DNA from: a virus | DNA length: 24,265 nucleotides | Direction: 5' to 3' (one strand) | Virus record (IMG/VR): IMGVR_UViG_3300007345_000269 | Location: 1-24,265 of that record | Shown: positions 17 through 21,711 of the stretch, one piece after another | How positions within the stretch are numbered: position 1 is the stretch's first letter | How the letters are laid out: each line of letters begins with the position of its first letter | Notes under the pieces: model-generated | The model's input: only the letters and a program-made list of their open reading frames with translations | The model's database searches: none | What the model was told of the DNA's origin: nothing | Position numbers and translations under genes: made by a program

Positions 17-199
17 TCATTTGATAGCTCCTGCATTTTCTATAATCTCCAACAATTCATCATCATCAACTATCTCTTTGCCACTGCCGTCACAAGCAGG
101 GCAGTCTTCATGAGACACATCATCATCTTCAAAAGCAGGAGTATCCCAAATCCATCCAGTTCCTCTGCATTGCAAACAATCAGTCTGTAAAAAAGTCAT
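17..199 (-). CDS. Small four-cysteine (DnaJ-type) zinc-finger protein
   Basis: A 60-residue protein with two CxxCxGxG-type motifs: C8-x2-C11-x-G-x-G, and C33-x2-C36-x-G-x-G-K. This is the pattern of the DnaJ cysteine-rich zinc centre, so one zinc ion held by four cysteines is the likely fold. The rest is acidic, with a run of Asp/Glu near residues 24-27 and 45-51. There is no J-domain, so it is not a chaperone of the DnaJ kind; in phages such isolated fingers usually have no assigned function. The start overlaps the end of the upstream HTH gene by 20 bases and a GGAAGG-like site lies about 10 bases before the ATG. It is therefore probably co-transcribed and coupled with the repressor. The function is unknown; a partner or modulator of the repressor is only a guess from position. 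Confidence 0.6.
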   Translation of the reverse strand: MTFLQTDCLQCRGTGWIWDTPAFEDDDVSHEDCPACDGSGKEIVDDDELLEIIENAGAIK

Positions 200-368
200 C
201 TGGCGTTACCTTCCCTTCAGTAGCTCTGTAGATGATCTGCATCACCCTCAAGCTTGGTTGCCTTTCACCCGCAATAATTCTGGACACAGTTGCTTTAGAT
301 AGTCCACACTTGTGAGCAAATTTAGTTTGGGTCAGCTTGTTCTGGCGTATGTAATGTCTGAGTTTCAT
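180..368 (-). CDS. Cro/CI-like HTH (XRE family) repressor
   Basis: A 62-residue basic protein made up almost entirely of one helix-turn-helix domain of the lambda repressor/Cro/XRE family. The HTH spans about residues 13-34 (Q14 to G34), with the typical turn at C21-G22-L23-S24 and a recognition helix K25-A-T-V-S-R-I-I. The length fits a Cro-type protein and there is no cleavable CI C-terminal domain. It is transcribed away from the early operon, and the shared intergenic region carries two palindromes over both promoters, so it very probably represses the early promoter, its own promoter, or both. The ATG at 368 lacks a clear ribosome-binding site, and the predicted transcription start falls on or next to this ATG. 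It may therefore be translated from a leaderless mRNA, as lambda cI is from PRM. The family call is secure; its role in a lysis-lysogeny decision is inferred. Confidence 0.85.
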   Translation of the reverse strand: MKLRHYIRQNKLTQTKFAHKCGLSKATVSRIIAGERQPSLRVMQIIYRATEGKVTPDDFFTD

Positions 369-372
369 AAGT

Positions 373-385
373 TAATTGTAAATTA
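373..385. promoter_or_regulatory. Second dyad over the repressor -10 box
   Basis: TAATT-gta-AATTA is a perfect dyad with 5-base arms. It overlaps the predicted -10 of the leftward promoter and lies just before the repressor start codon. Its sequence differs from the palindrome at 390-404, so it may be a second operator for autoregulation or a site for another protein. AT-rich dyads this short can also arise by chance. Confidence 0.35.
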
Positions 386-404
386 GTTGTTGACACAAAG
401 TCAA
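375..404 (-). promoter_or_regulatory. Leftward promoter of the repressor operon
   Basis: On the minus strand, TTGACT (404-399) is followed after 18 bases by TACAAT (380-375), a good sigma70-type pair. Transcription would begin about seven bases further on, at or beside the A of the repressor ATG (368), giving a leaderless transcript. The -35 box lies inside the palindrome at 390-404 and the -10 box inside the dyad at 373-385. Predicted from sequence only. Confidence 0.6.
390..404. promoter_or_regulatory. Candidate operator palindrome shared by both promoters
   Basis: TTGAC-acaaa-GTCAA is a perfect inverted repeat with 5-base arms and a 5-base centre. It contains the -35 boxes of the two divergent promoters, one in each arm. 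This is the size expected for a dimer of the adjacent 62-residue HTH protein, and binding here would close both promoters. The structure is seen directly; the protein that binds it is inferred. Confidence 0.6.
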
Positions 405-418
405 ATCATATCTACTTC
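390..418 (+). promoter_or_regulatory. Rightward early promoter
   Basis: A perfect -35 box TTGACA (390-395) is followed after 17 bases by a weak -10 box TACTTC (413-418). Transcription would start near 425, about 28 bases before the ATG of the nuclease gene at 453, leaving room for its AGGA ribosome-binding site at 439-442. The -35 box is half of the palindrome at 390-404, so a bound repressor would block it. The weak -10 suggests a promoter of moderate strength or one needing help. Confidence 0.55.
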
Positions 419-452
419 TACCACTATAAACCACTGTGAGGAACGGATTAAC

Positions 453-1337
453 ATGGAAGTACCAGCAACATTAAAAGAAATGGGTTATGCACATGATAGC
501 GCATCTGGGGCTACGGCTCCTAAAGATGAGATGATTTTAAAGCTGTGGGTGCGCCACAATAATATGCGCCTTCCAATGGCTGCTAGACCTTGGGCTGGAA
601 TTTGTGTTCAACAAGGTGTGGACCTAGCACTTGGATTAGCAGACTATAATGAGATGCTTGGTCAGCAAGAGCCTACCGACATGGCGCAAGCTGTTCGCTC
701 TGCGATGTCAAAGTATGACGAATACAAACCGCGCGATTGGGATGGCGGTAAAGATGCCGAAGAGTTTGACGCTTTTCGTGAGCATATCCCAGAAATGGTT
801 GCTGTTGGTATCGCTTCAGTAAAAGATTGTTTTTCTCAAGCTAATTTAATTGAAGGTGAGTATCAGCGTTGGCTTAAGGTTGATGGCTTAGATGTCCCTG
901 TAATGCTTTATCAAGATTATAGTGCGGGTGGTATGCAAGCTGACCTAAAGTGTAGCTTGCTGCTTCGCAACCCACCCAAAAAAGATGGCACAAGAAGTTG
1001 GCGCATACCAAAGCCGCGCACGACTCCAACATGGCAACAGGTTATGCAACAGGCTGTCTATTGGAAAGCTACAGGTCAAATGCCTTCACTGCTTTTTGTC
1101 ACAGCTTCCGGCTATCACATAGCCAATTCACAGAATTGTGAAGCCCTCACAGAAGATTCACTTAACAGGGCTTTCAATGATGCAGTCAGGTCTTGGAAGA
1201 CTACACAGAACCTAATTAGGGCTGCATACGGCAACTGGAACACGCTTGCTGGACTGGTTCAACCAGACTTTAATGAAATATCCAGAAGGCATGGGCCATC
1301 AATCACACAACTAGCAAGACAACTATGGAGTGACTAA
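453..1337 (+). CDS. PD-(D/E)XK (RecB/Cas4-like) exonuclease
   Basis: A 294-residue protein of the PD-(D/E)XK nuclease superfamily. The visible core is D155, then D164-L165-K166 (the D-x-K catalytic signature, here DLK in place of the usual DLKTS), followed by Q199/Q200 and Y203-W204, the Q-x-x-x-Y motif that marks RecB/Cas4-type nucleases. The strand after it (about 212-218, LLFVTAS) completes the fold. In phages this enzyme usually resects double-stranded ends to leave single strands for annealing, which fits the annealase gene and SSB-like gene downstream. The ATG at 453 is preferred: it has AGGA ten bases upstream, whereas the longer TTG start at 387 lies upstream of the predicted transcription start. 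It is the first gene of the early operon. The family is fairly sure; polarity and substrate are unknown. Confidence 0.75.
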   Translation: MEVPATLKEMGYAHDSASGATAPKDEMILKLWVRHNNMRLPMAARPWAGICVQQGVDLALGLADYNEMLGQQEPTDMAQAVRSAMSKYDEYKPRDWDGGKDAEEFDAFREHIPEMVAVGIASVKDCFSQANLIEGEYQRWLKVDGLDVPVMLYQDYSAGGMQADLKCSLLLRNPPKKDGTRSWRIPKPRTTPTWQQVMQQAVYWKATGQMPSLLFVTASGYHIANSQNCEALTEDSLNRAFNDAVRSWKTTQNLIRAAYGNWNTLAGLVQPDFNEISRRHGPSITQLARQLWSD

Positions 1338-9532: not shown

Positions 9533-11127
9533 TAGCTGAACGCCAGTTGTGGTGCGCCTAACAAGATAGAGTTGTCTGCTTTAATAATGTAAGGCACAAC
9601 ATCATAAGCATTGTTCGTTGCTGAGATTGTTAGTCCAGCACCGCCAGCCGATTCATAATCACCATGCAAAGACAGAGTTGCCGCCGCACCTGATGAAGGG
9701 TTGATAAAGATGATAGTGCCTGTCTGACCTATCTGACTGGCCTCTGTGGTAGGCGCGGCTAATGTGTTAGAGCCAGCTGCTAGGGTAATTATGAAGTTTT
9801 GATATGTGTCGAAGTCCAGCACACCGCTAGTTGCAGATAGAGCAGCTGTATAAGTTGATGGAACCTGTGCCTTAGTAAAGGTGTTCTGGTCGCTTGTCTT
9901 AACTACAACGCCCTGCAAACTCACTGCACCAGATGACACTGTAAAATCAGCAGTTGCAAAAGAAGCTATGCCTTTGTTGGATACAGTTGCATCCTCCCCA
10001 GCAATAGTAAGCGTGTCAGTTGCGGATACAGTAGCATCAATGCCCTCGCCGCTAGTTATTGTAAGAGTATTGCCATTGTCGATAGACTGCGTTGTAGACC
10101 CGTCTGTAAGACTAAATCCGCCAGATGCGTCTACACCTGAGTAACTAAAGTCAACTCTAATGCCATCAGTATTACTAAATGATCCGTTAGAAACAACATG
10201 CGTAACCGGCACCTTAGTATAGCCAGACGCATCAGTTACAGCACCAGAAACTTTGAACACTGCAAAAGTAGATGCTGTTCCTTCTTTCTCAATATGAATG
10301 ATGCCACGGGCCGTTGCGTTTGATATATCGTCAAAGCTTTGAACAAAACCGCTAATATCAACTGAGTTATCATCAGCGTCATCTATATACAAAATGCTTA
10401 CACTGCTTATTGTACCGTTGTTAAATGCCAACTTACCAGCACCAGGGTCGGCATCAGAAGTGGCTGAACTCCAAGTCATCTGCAAGCCAGCACTATTACC
10501 TGTTGCTCCTGTTGCACCTGTAGGAATACCTAGCGCTAACGCTAAAGCACCAGTTCCGACTGTGTAAGTGGCTGATGCTGTAGGGCTACCACCAACAGAC
10601 ACAGATGATGCTGTAGCTGACACAGTATCAACCTTGCCCTCAGTAACAGAAAGCTCACCACTACCGTCAAAACCAAGTATTTTGTTAGCTCTAGCTGTTG
10701 CTCCAACGGTAAATTCCGTAGATGTCATAGTGTTTGTACGAGAAATCTTGATAGATCTGCCCTGCTCCTCTGCAATTTCTTGAGCAATAAACGTTAGCTT
10801 ATCAAGAGCGTCTTCATGCGAGGCTGCTGGGAAAGGGTCATTAGGAGTGTAATCAGTTGTTTGAGTTTGTGCCGTTGATCTTAGCAGAACAACAGTCTCT
10901 CCATCCGCAGGAGCAGAACCGAATGTAATATTTCCGCCAGTTGCTACACCTACATTTGAAACCGTGTAATGAGTTGTCTTTGTTTTGACAGTTTCAGCAC
11001 CAGTAGAATCGGTTTTAATAATGACAGTAATATCGTCATCATCAAATATCTTAAAGTCATACGGAAAGACAGTAGTGGTGCCGTCACCGTCTGCACTTTT
11101 CTTTGTTGTAACGCTACTAACTGTCAT
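9532..11127 (-). CDS. Tail fibre with T7 gp17-type N-terminal domain
   Basis: A 531-residue fibre. The first 150 residues match the Phage_T7_tail domain that joins the fibre to the tail: F21-P-Y-D-F, D-D-I-T-V, the L-L-R-S-T block, then H104[17 protein letters not shown] and R-S-I. Residues 196-211 ([15 protein letters not shown]) form a short collagen-like Gly-x-Thr stretch. Beyond it is a Ser/Thr/Gly-rich beta shaft. The last 60 residues may form the trimer tip. T7 gp17 is of similar size (553 residues) but has a different tip. GGAG precedes the ATG and a sigma70-like promoter lies 21 bases upstream. It probably carries the LamG/SPRY protein encoded next. Confidence 0.85.
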
Positions 11128-18980: not shown

Positions 18981-21711
18981 CGAATGTATTAGACCTTCTC
19001 ATCACAGCAAGCACAGTCATTGGCAAAGGTTGGTTCTGTCGCACTATTATTCTTGCATCGTTGTCGTACCCAGAAGGGAAGTAAACTTCTTTATCACCAC
19101 TAAACAAAGGCACAGGCTCATCCATAGCCATGCTACTATCTCTAAACGGCAAACGATCTAGATTAGATAGATTTGGCCCTACTTCAGCACCAATGCTATC
19201 CAAGAACCTAACTGTCACGCCGTGTATACGCTTTACTTTGCCTTGAGAAATGCCGTCATCAGCACCAGCCTCTAACCGCAAAGTCTCTAGTATTGATGTG
19301 TAATTATAGCCAATGTGTACCTTAGTTGCGCTTCTGTCTAAAGTTATAGCTCCGCCTGTTACTATCTTGTCAGCATGAGTGGAACCATCAGCAACAATAG
19401 CTACTGTCTCACCTTCGAGATGGTTCAGACTGCTAATCGTTGTTGTTGCGGCACCGCTATAAGTTAAGCCACTATCTACATAAAATGCATCAGCCCCGTC
19501 AGTGCCAAAGAAGATAGCCTTCATAAAGCAAATATGACGTACAGTAGACCCGTCTATAGTTCTTTTTACAGACATATACACAGTGTCCTCTGAGCCTTCT
19601 GGGACGCTTGTAATGCTTTCAACAATGCAACTGCCTTGGCTAGTAGGTGCTAACCTTGTGCTGTCTGATGTTGCAACAGTTAGGAACCCCTGATTCTCTG
19701 GGGCTGTCTCTATAATTGTAACAACTGCTGCGGCTGGGTTAGCAACTGTAAAATCTGCATGGGCATTGATTCGTGTAAAAATATTATCAGCAGTTGTATT
19801 GTTGCTTTCGTTTGGCCTCCACCCAAGAGAGGTATCAGCAGGGTCAGTTCCCCCAGCAGCCTCGCTTGTAAAAACAACCGATTCGCCATCGCTTTTAGTT
19901 AAGGTAATAGTTGTGCCTATGGCTATGTTTGCATAGTCAGAAACAGTTACCGTTGCCTCGCCAAACTTCCCGCCTAAAGGATGAGTATGCCACCCCACAG
20001 CGTTGTTAGCGCGGTCATAGGTTAGCCCAATCAAGCGTCCATCTGTGTGAACAAACCATAAGATAAGCTCTGGCTCCTGTTGCCAAACCATATCACTGAC
20101 ACCACCTCTTAAAATATGGTCAGCTAAGATAGACAAGTCGATGCCAAGTAGACCGTCTGTATCTAAGTCGAACGTAATCTCTTTAACTTTTTCCTGACCT
20201 TTTTGGATTAGGATAGTTGAGTTTCCTGCTCGTAATGGCCTAACCTCAGAAGTTCCAAAAGTTGTTTCTCTTAAAATGTTTACATTAGTTGGCGTAACAG
20301 GTTGGGTGCCTTGCCCACCAGACAGTGTAAATTCTGCACTACTTGTTAAAATCTGTAGAAATCTAGCTGGCAAAAGATGCTTTATAACATTCACCTTATC
20401 AGACGAAATGGTAAAGTTTACCGCACTATCATCTAAGGTTGCTGGCGTATGGTTTTCAAAGTCAGCAGATGTGCTACCAAATATTGTCTGAGGTTTACCA
20501 GTAGTTCCAGCAAAGTATAGTCGTTGCTCATAAAAACCAACAGCCCTTGGTTGACCCTCTGTTCCCCCGAAAGAACCTAACGACCAACGAGTCGTTGCGT
20601 TACTACTACTTACTACGCTTGCTGGAAGAACCCCCTCACTGTTCTTGAATAACGCAGTAACAGTTGTTGCGTTTGTAAAAGCGGTAATTTTAAGGAACCC
20701 TGTTCCGCTATGTTGAAAAGCCCAAGTAATAGCTCCATAAGTCTCAGAGCCAGAAAGATGTACTGGGGGCGTTAGTCCAGAAGTATCTGAACCGCTATCT
20801 GTTTTCTTATAAACATTATCACCAAACCTAACTAAAGCGTTCTGGCTATAGCTTGTGCTTGTTGCCCATGCGTCGTGCTGAACCTCTATTACTTCTCTTA
20901 ACCTAACTAATCTTCCTACATCTGTAGCCGCAAATAAATCAGCAGATGCCGTAAGCGTAACGCTGCCAGTATTTGCAGAAGAATATATAGTGGTGTCAGT
21001 AATGTTTTCGTCTAGGTAAGGGCCATCAACAAAATCTATATCTGACAGATCCCAACCAGCATGGGCTGATGTTCTTGTAAGCTTTGCTGGCTCATGGCTT
21101 TTGTGGGCTAAAAAAATAACGTCAGCAGATTGAGTGTAGTTGAGTTCAAACACTTGCGCTTCTGTGTAAGTAGTAACTATCTCAACAATTTTTCCTGCGG
21201 TTCCACCACTGCCATAAGATGTGAAGCCAGAACTGTTTACACCACTTAGCTGAAAAGTATTTGTTGCTGTGCCAGCCACGGTAAACTCACGGTTATTTAC
21301 CTGTGTCATTCCAGCAACACCGCTAATAAATACTCTGTCTCCGTTGCTGTAGCCATGCCCATCAGACGTTACAACAGCAGGATTAGCAGATGTGATGCCA
21401 GTAATTGCTTTTGTTGCCTCTGTTACAATCCCGCCGTCTTTATAGACACGGATGTAATTTTCACCAAACTCAAGTACATAAGCCTGTTCGTCACTAAACT
21501 CAAAGTTTATCAGTCGTATTTTACCACCATCTTTAGACGAGCCAGCATAGTATGTACCTGGCCTTCTGGTAGTTCCGCCTTGAGGGAACACAAGCATATT
21601 CTGTAAGGTTTGTGCGCCTTCATTGTACTTTTCTAAGTCAATACGGCCCTCTAGTCTTGGGGAAAGTTCACCAGCCCGAAAGTTGGTAACAATGGTGGAT
21701 ACTCTCGCCAT
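18973..21711 (-). CDS. Tail nozzle (tail tubular protein B, gp12-like)
   Basis: A 912-residue beta-rich structural protein forming the end of the short tail. The N-terminal signature F11-R-A-G-E-L-S-P-R-L-E-G-R-I-D-L-E-K-Y with N-M-L-V-F-P-Q-G-G and R-R-P-G-T-Y-Y is typical of podophage nozzles, as is Q-S-A-D-V-I-F-L-A-H near residue 190. T7 gp12 has 794 residues. The extra length includes a small inserted domain at about 103-173 (I-T-S-A-N-P-A-V-V-T...G-H-G-Y-S-N-G-D-R-V) of the kind often found as an FCCH-like insert in phage nozzles. It starts three bases after the adaptor stop. Confidence 0.85.
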   Translation of the reverse strand: MARVSTIVTNFRAGELSPRLEGRIDLEKYNEGAQTLQNMLVFPQGGTTRRPGTYYAGSSKDGGKIRLINFEFSDEQAYVLEFGENYIRVYKDGGIVTEATKAITGITSANPAVVTSDGHGYSNGDRVFISGVAGMTQVNNREFTVAGTATNTFQLSGVNSSGFTSYGSGGTAGKIVEIVTTYTEAQVFELNYTQSADVIFLAHKSHEPAKLTRTSAHAGWDLSDIDFVDGPYLDENITDTTIYSSANTGSVTLTASADLFAATDVGRLVRLREVIEVQHDAWATSTSYSQNALVRFGDNVYKKTDSGSDTSGLTPPVHLSGSETYGAITWAFQHSGTGFLKITAFTNATTVTALFKNSEGVLPASVVSSSNATTRWSLGSFGGTEGQPRAVGFYEQRLYFAGTTGKPQTIFGSTSADFENHTPATLDDSAVNFTISSDKVNVIKHLLPARFLQILTSSAEFTLSGGQGTQPVTPTNVNILRETTFGTSEVRPLRAGNSTILIQKGQEKVKEITFDLDTDGLLGIDLSILADHILRGGVSDMVWQQEPELILWFVHTDGRLIGLTYDRANNAVGWHTHPLGGKFGEATVTVSDYANIAIGTTITLTKSDGESVVFTSEAAGGTDPADTSLGWRPNESNNTTADNIFTRINAHADFTVANPAAAVVTIIETAPENQGFLTVATSDSTRLAPTSQGSCIVESITSVPEGSEDTVYMSVKRTIDGSTVRHICFMKAIFFGTDGADAFYVDSGLTYSGAATTTISSLNHLEGETVAIVADGSTHADKIVTGGAITLDRSATKVHIGYNYTSILETLRLEAGADDGISQGKVKRIHGVTVRFLDSIGAEVGPNLSNLDRLPFRDSSMAMDEPVPLFSGDKEVYFPSGYDNDARIIVRQNQPLPMTVLAVMRRSNTFDA

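Follow-up and report, generated by a model that had tools for sequence, protein, structure and literature searches.

A Cro-like protein as probable autorepressor and early-gene timer at paired, opposing -35 boxes in an HTVC010P-like marine podovirus

In this study, we concluded that HTH1, a small DNA-binding protein encoded at the edge of a viral genome record, probably acts as a Cro-like autorepressor in a lytic marine podovirus of the abundant HTVC010P-like kind, serving as an early-gene timer and not as a lysogeny switch. Its candidate operator is a 15-bp palindrome, each arm of which supplies the -35 box of one of two opposing promoters; its message is predicted to begin at its own start codon.

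The window, the whole stretch of DNA that was analysed, is the 24,265-nt IMG/VR virus record IMGVR_UViG_3300007345_000269, classed as linear; this class often denotes a fragment, and the window is itself probably one. In its major capsid protein it shares 72% identity with Pelagibacter phage HTVC010P. The features of the locus are collected in Table 1. The nuclease gene is distantly similar to an annotated pelagiphage "putative nuclease", is preceded by an SD-like GAGGAA (438-443) and is followed, like its equivalent in C72C1, by annealing-protein-like and SSB-like genes. The CxxCxGxG protein matches Pfam DnaJ_CXXCXGXG below the cut-off and occupies the equivalent position in relatives G002 and G003; a weak similarity also links it to a portion of the Q-like antiterminators (phrog_127, E=6e-6). 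In relatives, the HTH1 operon also holds methyltransferase and resolvase-like nuclease genes. An Rfam search of the first 5 kb of the window returned no match.

Table 1. Features at the left end of the window (+, rightward; -, leftward strand).
Feature	Positions	Strand	Basis or remark
HTH1, 62-aa single-domain XRE/Cro-type DNA-binding protein	180..368	-	Pfam HTH_3, AlphaFold, fold matches, orthologues
Candidate operator TTGAC-ACAAA-GTCAA, 15 bp	390..404	.	Sole exact copy in the record; conserved with HTH1
Leftward (HTH1) promoter, -35 TTGACT	399..404	-	Sequence, consensus scan, sigma-70 matrix
Leftward promoter, -10 TACAAT	375..380	-	Predicted RNA start at 368, the A of the HTH1 ATG
Rightward early promoter, -35 TTGACA	390..395	+	Sequence, sigma-70 matrix
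Putative rightward -10 TACTTC, weak	413..418	+	17-bp spacer
Nuclease, 294 aa, gene 1 of the rightward early operon	453..1337	+	Position and distant similarity
CxxCxGxG zinc-finger-like protein, 60 aa, gene 2 of the leftward operon	17..199	-	Overlaps the end of HTH1

An earlier note on this DNA had proposed that TTGACA (390-395) and TTGACT (404-399) are the arms of a single palindrome (390-404), and all coordinates were confirmed. The exact motif TTGAC-N5-GTCAA occurs once in the window, with 0.04 copies expected in shuffled sequence. Using the divergent nuclease gene (453-1337) as query, we found 186 viral stretches, kept the best 80 loci and obtained 21 flanks after dereplication. HTH1 and the operator, with one arm mismatch allowed, occurred together in 75 of these best 80 of 186 loci, a count of loci that are not independent because three (L009-L011) match the window nuclease gene at 100% identity. 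As for the other five, the record of L081 is cut off just beyond its operator, those of L026 and L084 stop short of the operator, and both HTH1 and the operator are missing from L018 and L031. The exact operator never occurred more than once per locus, and each of the seven near-complete genomes that were read carries exactly one. Across the 21 flanks, mean pairwise identity was 96% for the ten arm bases, against 41% for the five central bases, 49% for the leftward spacer and 35% for the rightward 45 nt, which looks like the pattern of a protein-binding site. HTH1 orthologues with as little as 39% identity to the window protein retain nearly the same arms. In one clade (L019-L022, L024, L025), a different recognition helix (HYVYLRR) accompanies one changed arm base (GTAAA); as a single event, this co-change is only suggestive. 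Alignment of related phages thus showed the palindrome to be conserved and strongly supported the shared operator; the geometry of the region, its conservation, its co-occurrence with HTH1 and the missing SD all come directly from this comparison.

The two promoters differ in strength of support. The leftward TACAAT (380-375) was confirmed to end six bases before the HTH1 ATG, and it lies 18 bp from TTGACT. With a sigma-70 matrix that is approximate and has a spacer preference built in, the leftward promoter ranked 2nd among 48,464 -35 positions in the window, and a consensus scan gave it as the best match in the first 4300 bases (10/12). Support for this half of the promoter claim is strong. 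The rightward half is less well supported and draws on the -35 and on the relatives. Its -35 is perfect and TACTTC at 17 bp scores poorly (-1.75 bits); the promoter ranks 27th in the matrix scan solely if a 15-bp spacer is accepted, at which TCTACT is the best alternative -10, and the consensus scan lists the leftward promoter alone at the operator. The rightward RNA start near 425 put forward in the earlier note was not established, the rightward -10 of the window being weak, and TATAAA (425-430) was rejected as that -10 since no fitting -35 accompanies it. When the 21 flanks were shuffled 5000 times, 10 shuffles matched or exceeded the observed mean -10 score on the rightward side and none did on the leftward side.

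Judged from the 21 flanks, the repressor message is probably leaderless, by arguments that are strong but indirect. The HTH1 ATG (368-366, minus strand) was confirmed to have no Shine-Dalgarno sequence, and an in-frame TAA stands two codons upstream of it. In every intact case, the start codon lies 34-36 nt from the outer operator edge, counted from the methionine of MTLSEY if TTG opens the frame. An offset of 36 is paired with an 18-bp spacer in the clade of the window, and an offset of 35 mostly with a 17-bp spacer. The best -10 ended 5-6 nt before the HTH1 ATG in 21/21 flanks, a statistic that leans on the spacer preference within the sigma-70 matrix, and the constant distance from promoter to ATG could partly reflect shared ancestry. 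SD-like 4-mers preceded HTH1 in 3/21 flanks, compared with 19/21 for the nuclease gene. Natural variants point the same way. In L018, which has lost HTH1, the gene that comes next on the leftward side carries GAGGGAAG, which is SD-like, ahead of its ATG, and in L058 and L073 the ATG of the methyltransferase (phrog_757) coincides with the predicted RNA start, a leaderless position. This methyltransferase gene is an insertion (L058, 1056-1814; L073, 1212-1973) that has displaced HTH1 downstream; the displaced HTH1 is preceded by a weak G-rich stretch and no clear Shine-Dalgarno sequence, and this was not counted as evidence.

The description of HTH1 as a Cro-size HTH protein was borne out by Pfam, the AlphaFold model, and fold and profile matches. 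HTH1 matched Pfam HTH_3 above the cut-off (E=9.6e-11), as did 22/22 members tested, placing the family, with 46 distinct orthologue sequences, in the XRE/Cro-CI HTH superfamily. The AlphaFold model (pLDDT 91.6) has five helices in a single domain, and its fold matches are XRE proteins including C.AhdI, C.BclI, P22 c2 and YdaS. The best PDB profile match was YdaS of prophage CP-933P, deposited as Cro (E=2.4e-6); a single-sequence phmmer search against PDB gave one weak match alone, DBP48. A single-domain protein with a candidate operator overlapping both its own promoter and a divergent early promoter has the geometry of a Cro-like regulator.

HTH1 is unlikely to be a CI-type lysogeny repressor that silences the early operon of a dormant genome, episomal or integrated, even though lambda cI, PY54 cI and PaaR2 are known to have leaderless messages (PMC4488713, PMC8630535) and some cultured pelagiphages, such as HTVC028P, encode integrases. 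Searches that included positive controls revealed no tyrosine integrase, serine resolvase or cleavable S24 repressor in 12 near-complete relatives (eleven HTH1-type genomes and C72C1), and a scan of 84,980 bacterial genomes found no relative of the nuclease gene. Moreover, HTH1, at 62 aa, has no second domain, and thus nothing of the S24 type for self-cleavage or dimerisation, and a lone operator that equally blocks its own promoter would give no obvious maintenance state. The word "switch" in the earlier note is therefore unlikely to apply in the lysis-lysogeny sense, no integrase or resolvase having been found in the relatives, and it is from these absent genes that we infer a lytic lifestyle. 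The accompanying claim that HTH1 has no visible CI-type partner is less well supported: no cleavable CI was found in the relatives, but the absence seen in the window partly reflects the end of the record, and a partner on the left side cannot be judged there because the record ends 366 nt beyond the HTH1 start.

Eleven near-complete HTH1-type genomes have a second small HTH gene, HTH2, which lies 1-3 kb further left on the other strand; HMM matches identified it in ten, and in G001 it was recognised in an open frame that contains a masked stretch. Like HTH1, HTH2 has a single domain; it is a candidate regulator, not a CI. Inspection of six genomes showed a GC-rich hairpin and then a conserved CTAGC immediately ahead of HTH2, which usually has its own SD. 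The hairpin sites include L095 (about 10150-10247), L098 (6800-6884), L104 (1370-1470) and L101 (same gene); the four that were folded were more stable than shuffles (z -3.2 to -5.6), and the two stretches searched gave no convincing Rfam match. In L027 and L028 (G003 21207-21497), an additional HTH gene of 96 aa separates the operator from the nuclease gene; it resembles CII-like regulators and yields a facing HTH pair in G003.

It is slightly less probable still that HTH1 is a restriction-modification (R-M) controller, or C protein, activating at low dose and repressing at high dose so as to set the level of the operon methyltransferase. The fold matches to C.BclI and C.AhdI, the leaderless AhdI C mRNA and the overlapping divergent C and M promoters of EcoRV (PMC5333194) agree with such a role, as do the methyltransferase genes that follow HTH1 in several relatives. 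However, C/R promoters carry two adjacent operator sites, OL and OR (PMC4041747), where a single palindrome is found here, no R-M restriction endonuclease gene was identified among the neighbouring genes read, and C proteins give a weak sequence match (E about 0.1) next to that of YdaS/Cro (2e-6). Equally improbable is that the palindrome is kept only as two -35 boxes, or serves another protein (HTH2 or a host factor), with HTH1 acting elsewhere: both arms do fit the -35 consensus, and promoter function explains part of the conservation, but the fixed length of the 5-bp centre and the near-invariant leftward TTGAC exceed what a -35 tolerates, L018, from which HTH1 is gone, has one decayed operator arm (TTGACAGTGTTGCAA) yet has retained the rightward -35, and HTVC010P, with a different HTH protein at the equivalent position, has no TTGAC palindrome.

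Returning to HTH1 as a Cro-like autorepressor, we consider the following model of early gene control the most likely. Host sigma-70 RNA polymerase would start both early transcripts from interleaved promoters, the -35 hexamers of which are the two arms of one palindrome, and two polymerases would be unable to occupy the operator together. HTH1 would be translated from a message starting at its AUG, and as it accumulated, a dimer would cover the palindrome and block both -35 boxes, shutting off its own operon together with the divergent nuclease/annealing/SSB-like operon. As each operator arm is itself a -35 box, binding of the dimer should close both promoters together. We infer that a dimer binds and that it represses both promoters, as well as where the RNAs begin and how the shut-off is timed. 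One site and one protein would give negative feedback and not a two-state switch, with a burst of early transcription followed by shut-off as HTH1 builds up, and a timer is the simplest reading because the phage shows no signs of lysogeny. Leaderless translation, if slow, would delay the shut-off and so contribute to the timer; in a model of C.AhdI, leaderless translation was slower by a factor of five (PMC5333194), and a similar slowdown for HTH1 would lengthen the delay. Relatives of an AT-rich clade (L058, L070, L073, L075, L087 and others) have a second promoter-like sequence of the type TTGACA-N17-TAATAT past the operator, some 50-60 nt ahead of the nuclease gene. This second promoter may escape control, so that shut-off may be incomplete for the early operon of these relatives.

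Several known systems resemble parts of this arrangement. In the lambda-type YdaS/PaaR2 region of CP-933P, with YdaS as the Cro analogue, a small XRE protein is likewise divergent to another operon and operators overlap both promoters, and the leaderless PaaR2 regulator message has been mapped by RACE (PMC8630535). In contrast, lambda-type regions have several 18-bp repeats and two junction regulators, where the HTH1 locus has one 15-bp operator and one regulator, and no prophage genes were seen in the relatives. Cro of PY54 binds a single 16-bp palindrome, and the cro and cI mRNAs of this phage start at their AUG (PMC4488713); however, PY54 is temperate, its Cro is thought to repress cI and not itself, and it is at the HTH1 locus that the candidate operator forms the -35 of both promoters. 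C.AhdI shares with HTH1 the single-domain XRE fold, and its C message is leaderless, as is predicted for HTH1; C.EcoRV shares overlapping divergent core promoters (PMC5333194), whereas R-M controllers have two-site operators with activation and the HTH1 locus has one site and no identified restriction enzyme gene. At bidirectional promoters of Escherichia coli, near-symmetrical DNA drives transcription both ways and the polymerases can be mutually exclusive (PMC12825309); these share a symmetrical -10, whereas the symmetry at the HTH1 locus lies at the -35 and doubles as a candidate operator. Closer to the window, HTVC010P gp53 and the C72C1 repressor are also small HTH genes divergent from a nuclease-annealing-SSB-like module, but they have an SD before the start codon and no TTGAC palindrome. 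The annotated start of gp53 (NC_020481 30415-30801) seems to be placed about 51 codons too far upstream; the conserved HTH protein begins with the ATG at 30568, which follows an AGGAG.

Leaderless phage regulators, single-operator Cro proteins and overlapping divergent promoters have each been described already, while their combination and deep conservation in this marine phage group appear to be new. Early gene control in HTVC010P-like ocean viruses is apparently largely undescribed, as nothing on it was found in the literature searched. With somewhat less confidence than for the role of HTH1 itself, we lean towards the view that these loci represent a minimal one-protein, one-site early timer in lytic marine podoviruses, in which the operator is formed by paired opposing -35 boxes, the repressor is always leaderless and, in dozens of diverged phages, the start codon is locked to the -10. 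The circuit, with one protein and about 40 bp of DNA, is precise and testable. Furthermore, the predicted leaderless HTH1 group and the leadered HTVC010P and C72C1 form a natural comparative set at one gene position, which bears on why regulators tend toward leaderless messages, even in phages that show no signs of lysogeny.
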